From assembly GCF_900636575.1 (NCBI RefSeq), contig NZ_LR134293.1:2020745-2084744 (forward strand): a stretch of DNA of 64,000 nucleotides. The letters run 5' to 3'. Each line of letters opens with the position of its first letter. Positions within the stretch are counted from its first letter, which is position 1. The notes under the pieces were generated by a model, which did no database searches, was not told the DNA's origin, and saw nothing but the letters and a program-made list of their open reading frames with translations. Made by a program: the position numbers and the translations under genes. Shown in pieces: positions 48,636-64,000 of this stretch. The stretch is from Streptococcus canis (GTDB taxonomy: Bacteria; Bacillota; Bacilli; Lactobacillales; Streptococcaceae).

Positions 48636-48673
48636 AAAACGGTTCACTACTAATTCAGGTAGTGAACCGTTTT
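48636..48673. terminator. Bidirectional terminator after DNA polymerase gene
   Basis: AAAACGGTTCACTAC, loop TAATTCAG, GTAGTGAACCGTTTT: a perfect 15-bp stem with A/T tracts on both sides. It ends the polymerase operon on the plus strand and the type III toxin gene on the minus strand. Confidence 0.92.
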
Positions 48674-48687
48674 ATATGTGATAAAAA

Positions 48688-49230
48688 CTATTTCCTTAAT
48701 TGATTGATGAAATCTTCCTTGGAAATTGCTATTCCCAATTCATCATGAAAGTTGCGTAGAGTGCTAAATCGGTATGGGGTCAATGTTCTAAAAGTGACAG
48801 TTTCTCCCTTTTCAATCTTTGAACAAATCTCAATATACTTATTTACGTAATTCTTAACTCGTGAGAAAATACGATTTGAATTTCTTAGATAAAAAATCTT
48901 CTCATTTGGATTTTTAAAGTGATATATTCTTGAATTGTCAATATATTTTTCCTCAATAATCGTCAACTTACTGAAATCTAAAGTCTTCAGACACATTCTT
49001 CCATCGTGACGTCTATAGGTTGTGTAAGGAAATAAATGACTTGCATTCCTAAGATGCTCAGGAATACCGGAGCGAAGCGGAATTGCAATCAGTTGATTAT
49101 TGATATCAAGAACCATAACACCATGGCCACGCGCATTATCTTCTTGAAACTCATCTAAATATTGGTAAGTATCGAAATAGTCTTGAGTTAATAGATGAAA
49201 ATACAGACTATTCTTATTGATTTTTGACAT
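48688..49230 (-). CDS. Type III toxin-antitoxin endoribonuclease (ToxN/AbiQ/TenpN-like)
   Basis: 180 residues, the size of AbiQ (about 180) and ToxN (171). Features shared with the superfamily are the N-terminal LYFHLLTQDYFDTYQ, the conserved strand LIAIPLRSGIP, KTLDFSKLTIIEEKYI and the C-terminal helix TLRNFHDELGI. TenpN-like proteins show the same IPxRS...LDFSK order. The toxin would be a sequence-specific endoribonuclease held inactive by its own repeat RNA. Immediately upstream lie a consensus promoter and two 50-nt repeats; AGAGGT precedes the ATG. Family placement is from motif memory and context; catalytic activity is inferred. Confidence 0.72.
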   Translation of the reverse strand: MSKINKNSLYFHLLTQDYFDTYQYLDEFQEDNARGHGVMVLDINNQLIAIPLRSGIPEHLRNASHLFPYTTYRRHDGRMCLKTLDFSKLTIIEEKYIDNSRIYHFKNPNEKIFYLRNSNRIFSRVKNYVNKYIEICSKIEKGETVTFRTLTPYRFSTLRNFHDELGIAISKEDFINQLRK

Positions 49231-49252
49231 AAACTAAACCTCTATCATACGA

Positions 49253-49352
49253 AAAAAGGGCCTTTCTTTTTAGAGTCGCGACCCTTACGACTACATCAAC
49301 TTTAGAGTATTTTCTTTTTAGAGTCGGTATTACTCTCCGACTACTTCTACTT
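49253..49352 (-). ncRNA. Candidate type III antitoxin RNA (two 50-nt repeats)
   Basis: Two tandem repeats on the minus strand start at 49352 and 49302. Each reads AAGTNGANGTAGTCG, a short hairpin loop, CGACTCTAAAAAGAAA. AGTCG pairs with CGACT in both (AGTCGG with CCGACT in the first), leaving an A-rich tail. The second ends in GGCCC then T6, a possible weak terminator that would let some transcripts reach the toxin. Number, length and A-rich single-stranded parts fit type III antitoxins (typically 2-6 repeats of 35-50 nt). Confidence 0.7.
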
Positions 49353-49354
49353 AA

Positions 49355-49382
49355 ATTATACCAAAAACATCGCTAGTGTCAA
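49355..49382 (-). promoter_or_regulatory. Consensus promoter of type III TA locus
   Basis: Minus strand TTGACA (49382-49377), 16 bp, TATAAT (49360-49355). Both boxes are perfect, so antitoxin RNA would be strongly and constitutively made. Transcription would start within the first antitoxin repeat. Confidence 0.82.
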
Positions 49383-50420: not shown

Positions 50421-51545
50421 TTGGATTTTCCCACTTATTTTAGAATACTGAAAAAATATCTTGGAGATGGCGCGACTATCCCAGAGTTTTTTCGAGAACT
50501 CATTGAAATGATTACTGATGATGACGCCGAAGATATCATTAGTGCTTCTGGTATTACATCTGACAAAGCAGATAGTACGCTTATCTCTTATACAAAGCCC
50601 AAAAGAGGCTTCACCAAGAAGATGGCAAATCAATTGCTCTACCGGGTCAATTCAGCTAATATGACGGAGTCTATTGAAAGTAGGCCAGATGAAACTATTC
50701 AGTTACTAGCTAATGAATTTAATACTTATTATCCTGATATTACTGCTGAAAATGCCTCGCAAAGAATTCCAGAAATTTTCGTTGACTTCATTAGAGAGAA
50801 AGCTGGGATGGGAATATCAACCACAGCTCAAAAAGCTACATTTATTAACCAGTCGAATCAACTCAAAAAACAATATGGACAATTCTTACTGACGGAAGCA
50901 AATAACTGTTGTGCATTCCCAGGCTGTGATAGACCACTCATTTTAACAAGAGGTGGTTTAGCATCGGAAAACTATGAGGTTTCAACCATTGAAAAAGATA
51001 AGGACGCTGAACCACTGAATCTGATAGCCCTCTGCCCAGATTGTTTTTTAACCTATCAAGCAGAAAGTCGCAAAAAAATTGTAACAGCTCTAAAAAATGT
51101 TAAAAAGATTCTAGTCTCTGCACATAACAGCCAACAATCGATTTCTGATATGAAGTTAGATAGTGGAATTGTCTCAGTTTTGACTAGTCTCAATAAACTA
51201 AAATTTGATGAATATGATATCTCCTATGACCCGAAGCAATTGACTGATAAGATATCACCTGAGAACAATCGTACGCTTTATCAATTGGTTAAGAACCAAG
51301 TTATTGATAACTACTTAACCATTCAAAAAATCATTATAAATTTAGATAAACAAGGAAGAATCGATTACGAGGATATCCAATATCAAATGCGATCGATGTA
51401 CAAAAAGTTAAAGGCTGCCAAGCATGGTAATCTTGAGATTTTCAATACTATTTCGGAAAAACTCCATAAAGCTACACTACAGGACATCTACTTCTGCCAG
51501 ATGATTGTCTCTTACTTTATCCAAAAATGCGAGGTACTTGAATAA
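50421..51545 (+). CDS. ABC-3C system protein: HTH, degenerate HNH and ABC-3C C-terminal region
   Basis: 374 residues from a TTG at 50421 behind AAAAGGAGATAA. Residues 1-130 are helical with an HTH-like stretch (AEDIISASGITSDKADSTLISYTKPKRGF). Residues 150-220 form an HNH-like treble clef (NCCAFPGCDRPLILT ... LNLIALCPDCFLTYQ) with the zinc cysteines kept. The usual catalytic histidines are replaced (EVST for DHI-type, CF for CH), so nuclease activity is unlikely. The C-terminal part (250-374) is helical, as in ABC-three-component C-terminal domains. It overlaps the next ORF by 1 bp. It may sense a nucleic acid or protein trigger and report to the ATPase. Confidence 0.72.
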   Translation: MDFPTYFRILKKYLGDGATIPEFFRELIEMITDDDAEDIISASGITSDKADSTLISYTKPKRGFTKKMANQLLYRVNSANMTESIESRPDETIQLLANEFNTYYPDITAENASQRIPEIFVDFIREKAGMGISTTAQKATFINQSNQLKKQYGQFLLTEANNCCAFPGCDRPLILTRGGLASENYEVSTIEKDKDAEPLNLIALCPDCFLTYQAESRKKIVTALKNVKKILVSAHNSQQSISDMKLDSGIVSVLTSLNKLKFDEYDISYDPKQLTDKISPENNRTLYQLVKNQVIDNYLTIQKIIINLDKQGRIDYEDIQYQMRSMYKKLKAAKHGNLEIFNTISEKLHKATLQDIYFCQMIVSYFIQKCEVLE

Positions 51546-51769
51546 TGCAATTACCAAATAAACTTTATTCCTATCAAAAAAGCACCCTAGCCTATTTACC
51601 TAGAGTGCTACATGAAATTAAAATGGGGAACTCAAATGTGAAAGATATCTTTCATACTATCTCAGAAGAGTTGGAGGATCCGACAGATTTCTTATCCATC
51701 ATGGATTGCTTATATACATTAAACGCCATTGAAATGACCAATGAAGGAGAGGTAACATTATGCTTATAG
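51545..51769 (+). CDS. ABC-3C middle component (74 aa)
   Basis: MQLPNKLYSYQKSTLAYLPRVLHEIKMGNSNVKDIFHTISEELEDPTDFLSIMDCLYTLNAIEM. The LPNKLYSYxxS opening, central helices and LDCLYxLxxIE end match the small middle components (MC6/MC7-type) that bridge ABC-3C genes. These resemble winged-helix adaptors. It starts on the stop codon of the first gene and ends 10 bp into the ATPase gene, which indicates tight coupling and a complex. Confidence 0.75.
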   Translation: MQLPNKLYSYQKSTLAYLPRVLHEIKMGNSNVKDIFHTISEELEDPTDFLSIMDCLYTLNAIEMTNEGEVTLCL

Positions 51770-53418
51770 AAATGTGGTCGCCAGTCTTTAAAAAGGATGG
51801 ACAAACTCGGGAACCGATTCAATTTCACCCTGGATTAAACGTTATCATGGGTATGGACTTAGCTAATAATTCTATCGGCAAATCCTCTTCTTTATTAGCA
51901 ATTGACTTCATATTCGGAGGTAATAGCTATCTAAAATCAATTGCGGTTAAGAAATTAGGTGATCATCCTATCTACTTCTGCTTTCAATTTGAGAAAAAGT
52001 TTTATTTTTCAAGAGATACAGCCAATCCTGATATCATTATAGTGTGTGACAAGAACTACTCTCCAACTGGTGAAATAATGGACCTTGGAACGTTTCTTAA
52101 CAAACTTAAGAAACGATATCATTTGGAATCCTCCGATTTATCATTCCGATTAGCTATGAGTGGTTTCTTTAGAATTGCAGGGAAAAATAATCAAAATACC
52201 GATTTCCCGTTACAAGTTTATGCAAGCCAAAAATCTTCCGAATCCATTACAACCCTTATCCAACTATTTAATTTGTATGATAACATTGCACGATACAAAG
52301 AAAGACTTAAGGATAAGAGTGACCAGTTAACAACGTTTCGCAATGCTCGAAAATATGAATTTATCTCCAACTTAGTTGGTGGTAAAAAGCAATTCGAGCT
52401 CAACGTCTCAGAAATTAAAAGATTGGAATATGGCTTATCACACCTTCAAGATACTTATCAAGACAACATTTGTTCGGATGACATTGAGAAACATCAGCAA
52501 AAACTCCAGCTTAGAAATACTAAGTTGGAGCTAGAAAGTATTCTCCGTGATAAACAAAGACGTCTTAAGCTATTAGATATCAGTATCGAATTTGGTTTAT
52601 ATCCTACTGAATCTGACTTAACAGAGCTTCAGCAATACTTCCCTGATACTAATCTCAAGAAATTATATGAAGTTGAGACCTACCACAAAAAATTGGCAAC
52701 TATTTTAGATTCCGAATTCTCAACCGAACGTGAATCCCTAGTAGGTGAGATTGACGAATTAGAGAGTCAATTAGTAACTCTAAACCAAGAACTTCAAGAA
52801 CTAGGAAGCATCCCAAATCTTTCAACTGAGTTCTTAGAAAACTACTCTAAACTAACAGCAACGATCAATGCACTCAAAGAGCAAAACGAAGCCTATCTGA
52901 AAGAGTCTGCTTTATCAAAAGAAAAGTCAGAAGCAGACTCTGACTTGAAGCGTAGCACCGAAGATATACTAATAGAGTTAGAAGGAAAAATCAATGCTAA
53001 AATGCGAGAGTTCAATAATATTCTGTATCCAGATATTCGCAAAGCCCCTCAAATCAATCTCAAAGCTCATAACAGCTACTCCTTCTACACCCCAGATGAT
53101 GATGGTACAGGAACTAAGTTCAAAGGGATGATTTTATTTGACCTAACCATGCTCTATCTCACTAACCTGCCAGCACTGGCACACGACTCATTACTCTTGA
53201 GTAATATTAGCTACCAAGCAACCGAAGCTCTGTTGAAGCTATATGACCAATCAAAATCACTAAATAAGCAGGTGTTTTTAGCTTTCGATAAAGCAAGCTC
53301 ATACTCTCCAGAAGCTAATCAACTCTTATTAGAAAATACTGTATTGCGACTCTCTAGTAACGGAAATGAACTCTACGGTATTTCATGGAATAAAGGAGAA
53401 AACTCAGATGAAGTTTAG
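51760..53418 (+). CDS. ABC-3C SMC-like ATPase with DUF2326 end
   Basis: 552 residues. The N-terminal ABC half has FHPGLNVIMGMDLANNSIGKSSSLLAIDFIFGG (Walker A NNSIGKSS). A long coiled coil follows (about 180-420; KLQLRNTKLELESILRDKQRRLKLL, then ESLVGEIDELESQLVTLNQELQEL). The C-terminal part carries MREFNNILYPDIRKAP, FKGMILFDLTMLYLTNLPALAHDSLLLSNI and KQVFLAFDKASSYSPEANQLLLENTVLRL, the DUF2326 pattern with Walker B-like acidic residues. Relatives are RecN/SMC-like nucleic-acid or complex sensors in conflict systems. It overlaps the XRE gene by 11 bp. Confidence 0.85.
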   Translation: MLIEMWSPVFKKDGQTREPIQFHPGLNVIMGMDLANNSIGKSSSLLAIDFIFGGNSYLKSIAVKKLGDHPIYFCFQFEKKFYFSRDTANPDIIIVCDKNYSPTGEIMDLGTFLNKLKKRYHLESSDLSFRLAMSGFFRIAGKNNQNTDFPLQVYASQKSSESITTLIQLFNLYDNIARYKERLKDKSDQLTTFRNARKYEFISNLVGGKKQFELNVSEIKRLEYGLSHLQDTYQDNICSDDIEKHQQKLQLRNTKLELESILRDKQRRLKLLDISIEFGLYPTESDLTELQQYFPDTNLKKLYEVETYHKKLATILDSEFSTERESLVGEIDELESQLVTLNQELQELGSIPNLSTEFLENYSKLTATINALKEQNEAYLKESALSKEKSEADSDLKRSTEDILIELEGKINAKMREFNNILYPDIRKAPQINLKAHNSYSFYTPDDDGTGTKFKGMILFDLTMLYLTNLPALAHDSLLLSNISYQATEALLKLYDQSKSLNKQVFLAFDKASSYSPEANQLLLENTVLRLSSNGNELYGISWNKGENSDEV

Positions 53419-53617
53419 CTACAATAAATTATGGAAACTTCTCATTGATAAAGATTGGACAAAAACAAAGCTTAGACAAGAAGCTGGGATTAGTTCTTCC
53501 ACGATCGCAAAATTAGGAAAAGGGGAAAATATCACTACTGATATTTTATTGAAAATTTGTATTACACTTGATTGTAAGATTGAAGATATAGTAGAAATTA
53601 TAGATAATGATGATTAA
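53408..53617 (+). CDS. Small XRE-family regulator (69 aa)
   Basis: MKFSYNKLWKLLIDKDWTKTKLRQEAGISSSTIAKLGKGENITTDILLKICITLDCKIEDIVEI is a complete Cro/CI-type HTH (YozG-like). The ATG at 53408 overlaps the ATPase stop. It probably autoregulates the operon through the three TCGCAA sites at the promoter. The IS66 left end begins 3 bp after its stop, so the gene is not interrupted. Confidence 0.9.
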   Translation: MKFSYNKLWKLLIDKDWTKTKLRQEAGISSSTIAKLGKGENITTDILLKICITLDCKIEDIVEIIDNDD

Positions 53618-55988: not shown

Positions 55989-58900
55989 TTAATCCTCTTT
56001 TTTCTTAGAACCATACATAAGAGTGCTTATTAACAAAACAATTATTCCAAACAACGATAGATGAGTATTGATCTCGCCAGTAGAAGGAAGTTCAACAACA
56101 CCATCTGCTTCAACTTCAGCTTTCTTATCTTTGCCTGCTTGGGCGGCATCTTCGGCTGCTTTCACGGCTGCTTCAGCTGCGGCTTCTGCGGCATCTTGGG
56201 AATCTGGTTTGCCGTTGCTATCCGCATCGTTGACGGTTACTTCTGATGTCGTTACTTGATCAAGACGTGCTTTCAACGCTTCTTTGACTGGGCCTTCTGG
56301 TAAGCTATCGACTAACGGAGTTGCTGTACCTTTCTTCTCAGTTGTGACATCGTTCAAGCCATCTACGGCTGATTTCTCATCTGGATTAACAACACCATCT
56401 GCTTCAACTTCAGCTTTCTTATCTTTGCCTGCTTGGGCGGCATCTTCGGCTGCTTTCACGGCTGCTTCAGCTGCGGCTTCTGCGGCATCTTGGGAATCTG
56501 GTTTGCCGTTGCTATCCGCATCGTTGACGGTTACTTCTGATGTCGTTACTTGATCAAGACGTGCTTTCAACGCTTCTTTGACTGGGCCTTCTGGTAAGCT
56601 ATCGACTAACGGAGTTGCTGTACCTTTCTTCTCAGTTGTGACATCGTTCAAGCCATCTACGGCTGATTTCTCATCTGGATTAACAACACCATCTGCTTCA
56701 ACTTCAGCTTTCTTATCTTTGCCTGCTTGGGCGGCATCTTCGGCTGCTTTCACGGCTGCTTCAGCTGCGGCTTCTGCGGCATCTTGGGAATCTGGTTTGC
56801 CGTTGCTATCCGCATCGTTGACGGTTACTTCTGATGTCGTTACTTGATCAAGACGTGCTTTCAACGCTTCTTTGACTGGGCCTTCTGGTAAGCTATCGAC
56901 TAACGGAGTTGCTGTACCTTTCTTCTCAGTTGTGACATCGTTCAAGCCATCTACGGCTGATTTCTCATCTGGATTAACAACACCATCTGCTTCAACTTCA
57001 GCTTTCTTATCTTTGCCTGCTTGGGCGGCATCTTCGGCTGCTTTCACGGCTGCTTCAGCTGCGGCTTCTGCGGCATCTTGGGAATCTGGTTTGCCGTTGC
57101 TATCCGCATCGTTGACGGTTACTTCTGATGTCGTTACTTGATCAAGACGTGCTTTCAACGCTTCTTTGACTGGGCCTTCTGGTAAGCTATCGACTAACGG
57201 AGTTGCTGTACCTTTCTTCTCAGTTGTGACATCGTTCAAGCCATCTACGGCTGATTTCTCATCTGGATTAACAACACCATCTGCTTCAACTTCAGCTTTC
57301 TTATCTTTGCCTGCTTGGGCGGCATCTTCGGCTGCTTTCACGGCTGCTTCAGCTGCGGCTTCTGCGGCATCTTGGGAATCTGGTTTGCCGTTGCTATCCG
57401 CATCGTTGACGGTTACTTCTGATGTCGTTACTTGATCAAGACGTGCTTTCAACGCTTCTTTGACTGGGCCTTCTGGTAAGCTATCGACTAACGGAGTTGC
57501 TGTACCTTTCTTCTCAGTTGTGACATCGTTCAAGCCATCTACGGCTGATTTCTCATCTGGATTAACAACACCATCTGCTTCAACTTCAGCTTTCTTATCT
57601 TTGCCTGCTTGGGCGGCATCTTCGGCTGCTTTCACGGCTGCTTCAGCTGCGGCTTCTGCGGCATCTTGGGAATCTGGTTTGCCGTTGCTATCCGCATCGT
57701 TGACGGTTACTTCTGATGTCGTTACTTGATCAAGACGTGCTTTCAACGCTTCTTTGACTGGGCCTTCTGGTAAGCTATCGACTAACGGAGTTGCTGTACC
57801 TTTCTTCTCAGTTGTGACATCGTTCAAGCCATCTACGGCTGATTTCTCATCTGGATTAACAACACCATCTGCTTCAACTTCAGCTTTCTTATCTTTGCCT
57901 GCTTGGGCGGCATCTTCGGCTGCTTTCACGGCTGCTTCAGCTGCGGCTTCTGCGGCATCTTGGGAATCTGGTTTGCCGTTGCTATCCGCATCGTTGACGG
58001 TTACTTCTGATGTCGTTACTTGATCAAGACGTGCTTTCAACGCTTCTTTGACTGGGCCTTCTGGTAAGCTATCGACTAACGGAGTTGCTGTACCTTTCTT
58101 CTCAGTTGTGACATCGTTCAAGCCATCTACGGCTGATTTCTCATCTGGATTAACAACACCATCTGCTTCAACTTCAGCTTTCTTATCTTTGCCTGCTTGG
58201 GCGGCATCTTCGGCTGCTTTCACGGCTGCTTCAGCTGCGGCTTCTGCGGCATCTTGGGAATCTGGTTTGCCGTTGCTATCCGCATCGTTGACGGTTACTT
58301 CTGATGTCGTTACTTGATCAAGACGTGCTTTCAACGCTTCTTTGACTGGGCCTTCTGGTAAGCTATCGACTAACGGAGTTGCTGTACCTTTCTTCTCAGT
58401 TGTGACATCGTTCAAGCCATCTACGGCTGATTTCTCATCTGGATTAACAACACCATCTGCTTCAACTTCAGCTTTCTTATCTTTGCCTGCTTGGGCGGCA
58501 TCTTCGGCTGCTTTCACGGCTGCTTCAGCTGCGGCTTCTGCGGCATCTTGGGAATCTGGTTTGCCGTTGCTATCCGCATCGTTGACGGTTACTTCTGATG
58601 TCGTTACTTGATCAAGACGTGCTTTCAACGCTTCTTTGACTGGGCCTTCTGGTAAGCTATCGACTAACGGAGTTGCTGTACCTTTCTTCTCAGTTGTGAC
58701 ATCGTTCAAGCCATCTACGGCTGATTTCTCATCTGGATTAACAACACCATCTGCTTCAACTTCAGCTTTCTTATCTTTGCCTGCTTGGGCGGCATCTTCG
58801 GCTGCTTTCACGGCTGCTTCAGCTGCGGCTTCTGCGGCATCTTGGGAATCTGGTTTGCCGTTGCTATCCGCATCGTTGACGGTTACTTCTGATGTCGTTA

Positions 58901-61900
58901 CTTGATCAAGACGTGCTTTCAACGCTTCTTTGACTGGGCCTTCTGGTAAGCTATCGACTAACGGAGTTGCTGTACCTTTCTTCTCAGTTGTGACATCGTT
59001 CAAGCCATCTACGGCTGATTTCTCATCTGGATTAACAACACCATCTGCTTCAACTTCAGCTTTCTTATCTTTGCCTGCTTGGGCGGCATCTTCGGCTGCT
59101 TTCACGGCTGCTTCAGCTGCGGCTTCTGCGGCATCTTGGGAATCTGGTTTGCCGTTGCTATCCGCATCGTTGACGGTTACTTCTGATGTCGTTACTTGAT
59201 CAAGACGTGCTTTCAACGCTTCTTTGACTGGGCCTTCTGGTAAGCTATCGACTAACGGAGTTGCTGTACCTTTCTTCTCAGTTGTGACATCGTTCAAGCC
59301 ATCTACGGCTGATTTCTCATCTGGATTAACAACACCATCTGCTTCAACTTCAGCTTTCTTATCTTTGCCTGCTTGGGCGGCATCTTCGGCTGCTTTCACG
59401 GCTGCTTCAGCTGCGGCTTCTGCGGCATCTTGGGAATCTGGTTTGCCGTTGCTATCCGCATCGTTGACGGTTACTTCTGATGTCGTTACTTGATCAAGAC
59501 GTGCTTTCAACGCTTCTTTGACTGGGCCTTCTGGTAAGCTATCGACTAACGGAGTTGCTGTACCTTTCTTCTCAGTTGTGACATCGTTCAAGCCATCTAC
59601 GGCTGATTTCTCATCTGGATTAACAACACCATCTGCTTCAACTTCAGCTTTCTTATCTTTGCCTGCTTGGGCGGCATCTTCGGCTGCTTTCACGGCTGCT
59701 TCAGCTGCGGCTTCTGCGGCATCTTGGGAATCTGGTTTGCCGTTGCTATCCGCATCGTTGACGGTTACTTCTGATGTCGTTACTTGATCAAGACGTGCTT
59801 TCAACGCTTCTTTGACTGGGCCTTCTGGTAAGCTATCGACTAACGGAGTTGCTGTACCTTTCTTCTCAGTTGTGACATCGTTCAAGCCATCTACGGCTGA
59901 TTTCTCATCTGGATTAACAACACCATCTGCTTCAACTTCAGCTTTCTTATCTTTGCCTGCTTGGGCGGCATCTTCGGCTGCTTTCACGGCTGCTTCAGCT
60001 GCGGCTTCTGCGGCATCTTGGGAATCTGGTTTGCCGTTGCTATCCGCATCGTTGACGGTTACTTCTGATGTCGTTACTTGATCAAGACGTGCTTTCAACG
60101 CTTCTTTGACTGGGCCTTCTGGTAAGCTATCGACTAACGGAGTTGCTGTACCTTTCTTCTCAGTTGTGACATCGTTCAAGCCATCTACGGCTGATTTCTC
60201 ATCTGGATTAACAACACCATCTGCTTCAACTTCAGCTTTCTTATCTTTGCCTGCTTGGGCGGCATCTTCGGCTGCTTTCACGGCTGCTTCAGCTGCGGCT
60301 TCTGCGGCATCTTGGGAATCTGGTTTGCCGTTGCTATCCGCATCGTTGACGGTTACTTCTGATGTCGTTACTTGATCAAGACGTGCTTTCAACGCTTCTT
60401 TGACTGGGCCTTCTGGTAAGCTATCGACTAACGGAGTTGCTGTACCTTTCTTCTCAGTTGTGACATCGTTCAAGCCATCTACGGCTGATTTCTCATCTGG
60501 ATTAACAACACCATCTGCTTCAACTTCAGCTTTCTTATCTTTGCCTGCTTGGGCGGCATCTTCGGCTGCTTTCACGGCTGCTTCAGCTGCGGCTTCTGCG
60601 GCATCTTGGGAATCTGGTTTGCCGTTGCTATCCGCATCGTTGACGGTTACTTCTGATGTCGTTACTTGATCAAGACGTGCTTTCAACGCTTCTTTGACTG
60701 GGCCTTCTGGTAAGCTATCGACTAACGGAGTTGCTGTACCTTTCTTCTCAGTTGTGACATCGTTCAAGCCATCTACGGCTGATTTCTCATCTGGATTAAC
60801 AACACCATCTGCTTCAACTTCAGCTTTCTTATCTTTGCCTGCTTGGGCGGCATCTTCGGCTGCTTTCACGGCTGCTTCAGCTGCGGCTTCTGCGGCATCT
60901 TGGGAATCTGGTTTGCCGTTGCTATCCGCATCGTTGACGGTTACTTCTGATGTCGTTACTTGATCAAGACGTGCTTTCAACGCTTCTTTGACTGGGCCTT
61001 CTGGTAAGCTATCGACTAACGGAGTTGCTGTACCTTTCTTCTCAGTTGTGACATCGTTCAAGCCATCTACGGCTGATTTCTCATCTGGATTAACAACACC
61101 ATCTGCTTCAACTTCAGCTTTCTTATCTTTGCCTGCTTGGGCGGCATCTTCGGCTGCTTTCACGGCTGCTTCAGCTGCGGCTTCTGCGGCATCTTGGGAA
61201 TCTGGTTTGCCGTTGCTATCCGCATCGTTGACGGTTACTTCTGATGTCGTTACTTGATCAAGACGTGCTTTCAACGCTTCTTTGACTGGGCCTTCTGGTA
61301 AGCTATCGACTAACGGAGTTGCTGTACCTTTCTTCTCAGTTGTGACATCGTTCAAGCCATCTACGGCTGATTTCTCATCTGGATTAACAACACCATCTGC
61401 TTCAACTTCAGCTTTCTTATCTTTGCCTGCTTGGGCGGCATCTTCGGCTGCTTTCACGGCTGCTTCAGCTGCGGCTTCTGCGGCATCTTGGGAATCTGGT
61501 TTGCCGTTGCTATCCGCATCGTTGACGGTTACTTCTGATGTCGTTACTTGATCAAGACGTGCTTTCAACGCTTCTTTGACTGGGCCTTCTGGTAAGCTAT
61601 CGACTAACGGAGTTGCTGTACCTTTCTTCTCAGTTGTGACATCGTTCAAGCCATCTACGGCTGATTTCTCATCTGGATTAACAACACCATCTGCTTCAAC
61701 TTCAGCTTTCTTATCTTTGCCTGCTTGGGCGGCATCTTCGGCTGCTTTCACGGCTGCTTCAGCTGCGGCTTCTGCGGCATCTTGGGAATCTGGTTTGCCG
61801 TTGCTATCCGCATCGTTGACGGTTACTTCTGATGTCGTTACTTGATCAAGACGTGCTTTCAACGCTTCTTTGACTGGGCCTTCTGGTAAGCTATCGACTA

Positions 61901-64000
61901 ACGGAGTTGCTGTACCTTTCTTCTCAGTTGTGACATCGTTCAAGCCATCTACGGCTGATTTCTCATCTGGATTAACAACACCATCTGCTTCAACTTCAGC
62001 TTTCTTATCTTTGCCTGCTTGGGCGGCATCTTCGGCTGCTTTCACGGCTGCTTCAGCTGCGGCTTCTGCGGCATCTTGGGAATCTGGTTTGCCGTTGCTA
62101 TCCGCATCGTTGACGGTTACTTCTGATGTCGTTACTTGATCAAGACGTGCTTTCAACGCTTCTTTGACTGGGCCTTCTGGTAAGCTATCGACTAACGGAG
62201 TTGCTGTACCTTTCTTCTCAGTTGTGACATCGTTCAAGCCATCTACGGCTGATTTCTCATCTGGATTAACAACACCATCTGCTTCAACTTCAGCTTTCTT
62301 ATCTTTGCCTGCTTGGGCGGCATCTTCGGCTGCTTTCACGGCTGCTTCAGCTGCGGCTTCTGCGGCATCTTGGGAATCTGGTTTGCCGTTGCTATCCGCA
62401 TCGTTGACGGTTACTTCTGATGTCGTTACTTGATCAAGACGTGCTTTCAACGCTTCTTTGACTGGGCCTTCTGGTAAGCTATCGACTAACGGAGTTGCTG
62501 TACCTTCTTCTCAGTTGTGACATCGTTCAAGCCATCTACGGCTGATTTCTCATCTGGATTAACAACACCATCTGCTTCAACTTCAGCTTTCTTATCTTTG
62601 CCTGCTTGGGCGGCATCTTCGGCTGCTTTCACGGCTGCTTCAGCTGCGGCTTCTGCGGCATCTTGGGAATCTGGTTTGCCGTTGCTATCCGCATCGTTGA
62701 CGGTTACTTCTGATGTCGTTACTTGATCAAGACGTGCTTTCAACGCTTCTTTGACTGGGCCTTCTGGTAAGCTATCGACTAACGGAGTTGCTGTACCTTT
62801 CTTCTCAGTTGTGACATCGTTCAAGCCATCTACGGCTGATTTCTCATCTGGATTAACAACACCATCTGCTTCAACTTCAGCTTTCTTATCTTTGCCTGCT
62901 TGGGCGGCATCTTCGGCTGCTTTCACGGCTGCTTCAGCTGCGGCTTCTGCGGCATCTTGGGAATCTGGTTTGCCGTTGCTATCCGCATCGTTGACGGTTA
63001 CTTCTGATGTCGTTACTTGATCAAGACGTGCTTTCAACGCTTCTTTGACTGGGCCTTCTGGTAAGCTATCGACTAACGGAGTTGCTGTACCTTTCTTCTC
63101 AGTTGTGACATCGTTCAAGCCATCTACGGCTGATTTCTCATCTGGATTAACAACACCATCTGCTTCAACTTCAGCTTTCTTATCTTTGCCTGCTTGGGCG
63201 GCATCTTCGGCTGCTTTCACGGCTGCTTCAGCTGCGGAAACTCTTAGAGCAACTATACTATCAGTTATAATCTTAACTGCATCATCTACTTTATCTTGGC
63301 TTGTAAAACTATCGTTTACTACTACTTGACCTTTTTTGATAGAATCATCGTAAGCCGTTTGTTTTGTTTTATCTGCATTAACATATATATCAGTTAACTT
63401 CAAATTAGAATCATTATCTAAAAGTCGTTGTAATTCTTCTTCTCAACCTTTTTATAAGTATAGGTAATAGTTTGAATACCTGAATTGAAATTAATTGTGT
63501 TACTGTCCTGATATCCTACTGCAGTAGGAGCATTAGTCCTCTTAAATGTATAATTAGGTAACATCAATTTATCCGACAAATCTAGAGATTGATAAGTCAA
63601 CCTGAGTATAGCTTTTCTTTAATAACATTTCCAGTTGAATCATCAACATACAATAATTTTATATAGCTACCACCTGAAGAATACTCAAACCTAGTTAAAT
63701 CAAATTGTTGTAAATTTGTTCCTGACCCAGTAGAAGCAAAAATCGCAAAGCCCAACTCTTCTCTTCCCTTAGCCTGGTTAGTAGTTAGTCTACTTTTATC
63801 TAAATAGGTTTGAATATTTTTTGTGAATATTTGTCCATCATATGTCACTGTCATAGCCTTTGATTGTCCATTATAATCAACAATCACATTTTTAAATTCG
63901 TTATTATGCGGTTGTGACTCTAATCTTCGAGCATCTTGCAACAATGTAATTGCTTTTCCACTAGCATCTGTGCCATAAAAGGCCACAAAAGCCCCATTTT
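55989..64000 (-). pseudogene. Giant LPXTG-anchored repeat surface protein, 5' end outside window, three frameshifts
   Basis: One gene read from the right edge leftwards. The visible N-part is L-type-lectin-like (GAFVAFYGTDASGKAITL; NVIVDYNGQSKAMTVTYDG). It is followed by a MucBP-like module (YIKLLYVDDSTGNVIKEKLYSG, then NYTFKRTNAP), a FIVAR-like helical module (LKLTDIYVNADKTKQTAYDDSIKKGQ), about 24.3 identical 98-residue repeats, then the sortase signal LPSTGE, a hydrophobic segment and KKKED. Frame is lost at about 63600, 63440 and 62505, each explained by one base missing from a 3-base run. The longest uninterrupted piece is 55989-62450 (2153 residues). If intact it would be a cell-wall-anchored adhesin of well over 2600 residues. 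Confidence 0.88.
56094..63237 (-). repeat. Tandem array of about 24.3 copies of a 294-bp unit
   Basis: Period 294 bp (98 codons), with 25 occurrences of the core KAEVEADGVV. Copies appear identical at base level wherever compared, apart from a single-base deletion near 62505. Each unit encodes an Ala/Lys-rich helical part (AAEAAVKAAEDAAQAGKDKK), then EADGVVNPDEKSAVDGLNDV, LVDSLPEGPVKEALKARLDQV and VNDADSNGKPDSQD. This resembles GA-like domain arrays of large adhesins. The array reaches from the LPSTGE anchor to the FIVAR-like module. Confidence 0.93.

Follow-up and report, generated by a model that had tools for sequence, protein, structure and literature searches.

A prophage in the Streptococcus canis DNA analysed here (64,000 nucleotides (nt) of contig NZ_LR134293.1, positions 2,020,745 to 2,084,744; hereafter the window) carries, beside its DNA polymerase gene, a locus that very probably represents a phage-borne type III toxin-antitoxin (TA) module of a Gram-positive TenpIN-like lineage, with a ribonuclease (RNase) toxin, antitoxin processing and transcription termination at an RNA pseudoknot as proposed below. 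The features computed here are the homology and the predicted fold of the toxin, covarying pseudoknots in the antitoxin region, a T-run after the second antitoxin unit, the lack of a separate terminator and the position of the module in an optional slot of the phage genome. A type III identity, as put forward in an original prediction made from the letters of the window alone, is supported since the toxin is homologous to TenpIN, its model finds a type III toxin (ToxN) as top PDB match, and the units of the antitoxin are covarying pseudoknots of the H type. The following elements, all on the minus strand, make up the locus:

49355..49382, minus strand: promoter TTGACA-16-TATAAT with TG before the -10 element (12/12 consensus; retained in relatives, altered in a few)
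49304..49342, minus strand: antitoxin unit 1 (TenpI R1), a predicted H-type pseudoknot with an A-rich connecting loop at 49321-49310
49256..49292, minus strand: antitoxin unit 2 (TenpI R2), a predicted pseudoknot formed by the pairings S1 and S2
49252..49286, minus strand: probable pseudoknot terminator, the 7-pair S2 stem of unit 2 with a 17-nt loop, the 3' strand of which enters six T (49257-49252)
49239..49243, minus strand: putative ribosome-binding site AGAGG, 8 nt ahead of the ATG, as read from the sequence
48688..49230, minus strand: TenpN-like toxin of 180 amino acids (aa), based on NCBIfam TenpIN, PHROG 8049 and an AlphaFold2 model
48636..48673, minus strand: terminator hairpin of 15 pairs 3' of the toxin gene, between it and the convergent DNA polymerase gene

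The order of promoter, two antitoxin units, ribosome-binding site, 180-aa open reading frame (ORF) and terminator was confirmed, and all of the predicted parts (promoter, tandem repeats, AGTCG/CGACT, A-rich tail, 180-residue gene and strong terminator) are present. TTGACA lies at 49382-49377 and, after the 16-nt spacer, TATAAT at 49360-49355; a 1-kb scan gave 12/12 for this promoter and 9/12 for each of three other promoter-like sites. The hairpin at 48673-48636, with five T among the following eight bases, is common to the toxin gene and the convergent polymerase gene, and a similar hairpin is retained in the empty slot of viral contig L057. As the pattern of the repeat units matched eight of 284 genomes of the genus and the reversed pattern none, the units are not a product of chance.

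With respect to the toxin, the proposed comparison with hidden Markov models of type III toxins yielded a match to the NCBIfam family TenpIN (NF047358; E 6.2e-21, 75.1 bits), albeit under its cut-off of 90 bits, that spans positions 1-141 of the 141-position profile and thus reflects full-length homology. L017, a locus of the same group as the window toxin, scored 69.2 bits, and L018, L020, L010, and L012, loci with TenpIN of the Photorhabdus type, reached 103.6-150.4 bits. PHROG 8049, the function of which is unknown, was matched with an E of 3.1e-67. The IPxRS and LDFSK-like segments named in the original prediction are indeed found as IPLRS and LDFSK, with P51, R53, S54, D85, and K88 being invariant across 12 relatives. 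Other candidates were discarded: the sole Pfam match, PP_kinase_C (E 0.043), did not reach its cut-off, phmmer searches of the PDB gave glutamate carboxypeptidase at E 0.44 or worse, which was judged to be chance, and the profiles A1 and A3 gave one PDB match of E 0.69 and none, respectively. No match of the window toxin to ToxN_toxin (PF13958) was found in Pfam up to E 1.

In a tree of 22 TenpN-like sequences, seven form a clade with a local support of 1.000, namely the window toxin and those of Enterococcus cecorum, Streptococcus suis, one genome of the order, Enterococcus faecalis, Listeria, and Macrococcus; their lengths are 177-181 aa as compared to 141-171 aa in the other 15 sequences. 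Judged from these sequences, the window toxin falls into a subgroup of the TenpN-like type III toxins that has good support. The suggestion of a new subgroup is therefore upheld in part, given the clade and the score below the NCBIfam cut-off; the basic identification as TenpN is not new, because a public phage record (OQ418408) already names a 98.3 % identical relative 'toxin TenpN protein', while a second one (PP091924, 97.2 %) reads 'hypothetical protein'. Farther relatives reside on plasmids of Enterococcus (59 %), Listeria (50 %), Macrococcus (46 %), and enterobacteria (33.5 %), and TenpIN loci are on record in Staphylococcus aureus (PMC4885055). Overall, the toxin is rare: matches at E 1e-5 were obtained in five of 284 genomes of the genus, including one distant match that has an internal stop, in six of 395 of the order, and in three of 398 of the class. 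The TenpIN family matched eight of 398 genomes of the phylum, of which one exceeded the cut-off, and 14 control genomes gave no match. The protein alignments were made without L003, the toxin copy of which has an internal stop, without the broken copies L001, L002, and L011 and without the short copies L006 and L050; contigs L037-L040, in which tblastn with the toxin gave only matches of E 1.5 or worse, were set aside.

An AlphaFold2 model built from 13 sequences (predicted local distance difference test 86.9, predicted template modelling (TM) score 0.82) found, in line with the structural check proposed at the outset, a type III toxin as top PDB match, E. coli ToxN of the ToxIN system (7d8o; probability 1.00, TM 0.47/0.51, E 4.0e-3), followed by a second-ranked match with a probability of 0.21. 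Among viral models, the top match was a PemK/MazF toxin (probability 0.99, E 4.6e-3). Both matches fit the published tie between ToxN and the Kid family (PMC4627078). A poorer model from nine sequences likewise had a ToxN chain as top PDB match, although a weak one (4ato; probability 0.77, TM 0.33, root-mean-square deviation 11.7).

The two antitoxin units begin 50 nt apart, with AGTCG at 49342 and 49292, and both contain AGTCG/CGACT and the CTCTAAAAAGAAA tail; the exact direct repeat comprises 16 nt at a start spacing of 48, rather than 50, because the two loops differ in length. Each of the hairpins originally described is, on the evidence of conserved pairing, one half of an H-type pseudoknot, the loop of S1 pairing as S2 with bases past the A-rich stretch. 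In unit 1, S1 joins AGTCGG (49342-49337) to CCGACT (49327-49322) and S2 joins AGAGTA (49336-49331) to TACTCT (49309-49304); in unit 2, the partners are AGTCG (49292-49288) and CGACT (49278-49274) for S1 and AAGGGTC (49286-49280) and GGCCCTT (49262-49256) for S2, the latter with seven pairs including one G-U. In relatives, the S2 pairing is retained with other letters, both in unit 1 (GAACA/TGTTC, GGACA/TGTTC, and AGGAGG/CCTTCT) and in unit 2 (AGAGCC/GGCTCT, AGAGA/TCTCT, and AGAAGG/CCTTCT). For 11 representatives chosen out of 19 distinct units (30 in total), the own-pair score of S2 was 77, a value reached by none of 100,000 partner permutations (best 75) and none of 2,000 sets of shuffled loops (mean 39); when all 19 distinct units were used, none of 20,000 permutations matched the own-pair score. 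In a structure-blind alignment of 16 distinct units of the 22 listed, 95 % of 160 cells were paired as compared to 87.1 % in shuffles, and 18 cells as compared to 8.0 were changed on both sides (in each case 0/500 as high); sliding the partners lowered pairing to 38-52 %. The reading of the repeats as simple hairpins was set down in view of this S2 covariation. Type III antitoxins with solved structures fold as pseudoknots as well (PMC5086642 and PMC4627078). In genome G977 of the same genus, the array of S. suis HCJ31 (L005) is found again.

In published type III loci, a palindromic Rho-independent terminator separates the repeats from the toxin gene (PMC5086642). This usual separate terminator is missing here, and the statement that the locus has exactly the order of type III systems is consequently not quite accurate. 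A search for a conventional terminator (stem, loop of at most 10 and T-run within 110 bases before the toxin) found one in none of nine loci of the window's group as compared to 15 of 17 other TenpN loci, the two without being L010 and L051, of which the latter was searched from the beginning of a match instead of the beginning of the gene. Left out of this search were the near-identical L002, L013, L014, L048, L049, and L050 as well as L021, L023-L028, and L032. When loops of up to 22 were allowed, seven of the nine loci of the window's group showed the S2 stem of unit 2 with a T-run behind it. In addition, five to nine T are present among the nine bases after S2 in six unit-2 representatives as compared to three to four in five unit-1 representatives. 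Taken together, the lack of a separate terminator (0/9 vs 15/17), the succession of S2 and T-run and the T enrichment after unit 2 make the last pseudoknot of the antitoxin the probable terminator. Because none of the nine loci has a separate terminator, the module is a variant and not a standard member of type III. It appears rather unlikely that this is an ordinary TenpIN module in which the T-run that follows unit 2 is fortuitous and the ratio of toxin to antitoxin results from read-through, processing or weak translation: such a module would agree with the nested folding of unit 2, which yields a long-loop stem rather than a classic terminator, and with L015 and L016 (2/9), which fail the long-loop test, but neither the difference in T count between the two units nor the contrast in conventional terminators between the window's group and the other loci would be expected from it. 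If the second knot indeed serves as both antitoxin and terminator, antitoxin folding would be tied directly to toxin dosage. No paper on an antitoxin pseudoknot acting as terminator, or on a TenpI-ToxI chimera (see below), was found in the collection of papers searched, at the level of titles and the openings of abstracts; the first survey of type III systems (Blower 2012), which lay outside this collection, may hold members of the window's group.

Besides L015 and L016, several results weigh against a TenpIN-like module with pseudoknot antitoxins. The window toxin, with its 75.1 bits, misses the curated cut-off of NF047358, Pfam and PADLOC assign it no family, sequence searches of the PDB (phmmer; profiles A1 and A3) yielded no TenpN-like protein, and no fold match reached an E of 0.001 or less in the PDB or the viral-model library. 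As to the RNA, neither double-change pairs (4; 274/500 shuffles as high) nor pair types (9; 342/500 as high) exceeded those in shuffles, S2 is weak in unit 2 of L015, folding as a single strand gives unexceptional energies (z -0.69 to -1.12), and no Rfam family matched the locus at its cut-off, with the chimeric array likewise giving only matches below it. A structured leader (riboswitch or attenuator) before a phage gene, with no TA module at all, is a highly improbable explanation: a structured 5' leader and a possible terminator before a single gene would fit the outline, yet TenpIN homology, the ToxN-like fold, two separately covarying units, and the exchange with a ToxIN module in the same slot oppose it, and it was set down in view of the toxin homology.

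This exchange is seen in five viral contigs of ToxIN type (L041-L045), in which the TenpIN promoter and TenpI unit 1 are retained up to the end of S2 and are followed by up to three copies of a 34-nt repeat, a separate terminator (GGGTTGTC...GGCAACCC) and then the toxin gene. The toxin of the chimeras matches PF13958 (E 2.6e-33) and has ToxN 4ato as best PDB match (E 4.9e-24); the slot of L045 gives a 170-residue match to ToxN, but no ORF of 100 aa is listed there. Among the eight genomes with the unit pattern, four have both TenpI units and a TenpN-like gene (G000, G977, G999, and, with a shortened toxin, G856), while the other four have unit 1 followed by ToxI-type repeats, with an intact ToxN in G983 and G984 and only a remnant in G867 and G872. 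The loci with a chimeric array of TenpI unit 1, ToxI-type repeats and ToxN or a remnant, in the same promoter context, are L041-L045, L066, L067, L069, and L070. Close relatives of the ToxN of the chimeras were not found in another setting, as the viral contigs gave the same five, the phages one cut copy and two distant ones, and 233 genomes the two known copies and one distant one.

The first unit seems to be held constant in these arrays. All nine chimeric arrays have at least five pairs in both S1 and S2 of unit 1, and a single base change in G983/G984 retains the pair as G-U. Between L042 and G983, unit 1 differs at one of 38 positions, as compared to 13 of 60 upstream positions and 18 of 45 fourfold sites in toxN (Fisher p 0.008); between L042 and G867, the differences are 0/38 in unit 1 and 12/60 upstream (Fisher p 0.003), and G867 and G983 gave a Fisher p of 0.046, all p values being uncorrected and the lineage pairs not independent. 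This constancy suggests a function of unit 1 in the chimeras. Toxin decay points the same way, as the TenpIN copies L001, L002, L003, and G856 have a broken or shortened toxin with both antitoxin units remaining; an internal stop or a missing start region next to two retained units is likewise seen in L001, L002, L003, and L050. The upstream bases of L041 and L042 match TenpIN phages (0-1/60 differences), and exchange with such phages could also hold unit 1 constant. There is accordingly a considerable chance, if somewhat below even, that the chimeric arrays are recombination scars in which unit 1 is idle and merely retained beside a shared promoter: a single ancestral fusion would suffice, the nine arrays seen share the position of the junction, and the upstream bases shared by L041 and L042 with TenpIN phages imply that exchange continues there, whereas the near-identity of unit 1 between lineages that diverge upstream and in toxN, and the paired state of S1 and S2 in every array, speak against an idle remnant. 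More tentatively, the chimeric arrays may be two-specificity antitoxins that let ToxIN phages displace TenpIN elements, or infect past them, without triggering TenpN, with the last knot of the TenpIN form acting as a terminator that limits toxin transcription. The kept TenpI unit would then shield a phage with ToxIN when it replaces a TenpIN element or comes in next to one; escape mutants of phage PhiTE show that antitoxin RNA can be of benefit to phages (PMC3475682). The chimeras thereby pose the testable question of whether phages keep an antitoxin unit against the toxin of a rival.

The slot itself lies between the DNA polymerase gene and a gene for a 217-aa protein that is labelled a sigma factor in one phage record and matches no family in Pfam or NCBIfam; it is called sigma-like here on the strength of that label. 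In phi-SsUD.1, phiNJ3, phi-m46.1, phi-SgaBSJ31, and viral contig L057, the gap between the two genes is 35-56 nt without a toxin, and eight viral contigs with the sigma-like gene comprise two with TenpIN, five of ToxIN type and one empty; the phage records compared at the slot were six of the 43 with a relative of the sigma-like gene. The slot is hence an optional cargo site with three states, i. e., empty, TenpIN or ToxIN. Further prophage neighbours encode polymerase A (PF00476), an Enc34-type single-stranded DNA-binding protein, a DUF2800 protein and a D5_N/DUF5906 helicase-type protein. At 50421-53617 of the window, adjoining the TA module, CTD11, MC7, and DUF2326 genes and an XRE regulator form an ABC-three-component set, with LmuA- and LmuB-like PADLOC hits, and because this set adjoins the module, the region looks like a defence cargo block. 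As additional observations, the phage DNA polymerase ORF of about 960 aa in L044 (1199-4096) and L057 (5702-8584) contains an intein-like insertion (LACIAEGELVLT...HNCGYGG) and an overlapping 257-aa frame, a 294-bp unit is repeated 24.3 times in tandem at 56094-63237 of the window (99 % matches), and the name of phage OQ418408 (L013), which carries the 98 % relative, refers to fexA and optrA, with truncated MFS transporter genes listed near the module.

Concerning the mode of action, five points are inferred: an RNase activity of the toxin, the sites it would cleave, a stop of transcription at the knot, the trigger and the benefit. The single promoter would yield a short RNA of two pseudoknots, with transcription mostly ending at the second one (S2 and T-run) and read-through giving little toxin mRNA. 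By analogy with ToxIN, CptIN, and TenpIN, the antitoxin RNA would be made in excess, and the toxin, presumably an RNase of the ToxN/MazF fold, would cut its own antitoxin RNA at the A-rich joints and then be held inactive by the pieces. Upon a drop in transcription (phage takeover, shut-off of host transcription or prophage loss), the RNA would decay first and the toxin be set free. The likely service is defence against other phages or retention of the prophage; TenpIN of Photorhabdus aborts phages (PMC5377504 and PMC5449768). The compact two-unit module might furthermore offer a handle on the third type III family, TenpN, for which the PDB holds no sequence match.

Among known systems, TenpIN of the Photorhabdus type shares the order of promoter, repeats and toxin, a homologous toxin and H-type pseudoknot units with an A-rich loop, which are visible in its arrays, but the toxins of the window's group are longer (177-181 aa as compared to 141-171 aa in the other tree members) and only 20-33 % identical to these, and a separate terminator, found in 15 of the 17 others, is found in none of the nine loci of the window's group. 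CptIN of Eubacterium rectale resembles the module in its two units, each a pseudoknot in which L1 is very short and the second loop long and A-rich, and its toxin is an RNase that cuts its own antitoxin, which would by analogy be expected here as well; it differs in its 45-nt unit as compared to the 50-nt spacing (PMC4627078) and in a toxin without detectable sequence similarity, phmmer against the PDB having found no type III toxin. The overall logic is also that of ToxIN/AbiQ (PF13958), the ToxN chains 4ato and 7d8o of which top the PDB matches of both models and which occupies the same slot in related phages; ToxIN/AbiQ belongs to another toxin family by sequence, however, and has 34-nt repeats. 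Finally, the pseudo-ToxI of phage PhiTE likewise represents a phage with a type III antitoxin RNA that is not matched to a toxin of its own; it is known from laboratory escape mutants of one family (PMC3475682), whereas here natural phages and genomes have a complete TenpI unit ahead of a ToxIN module.
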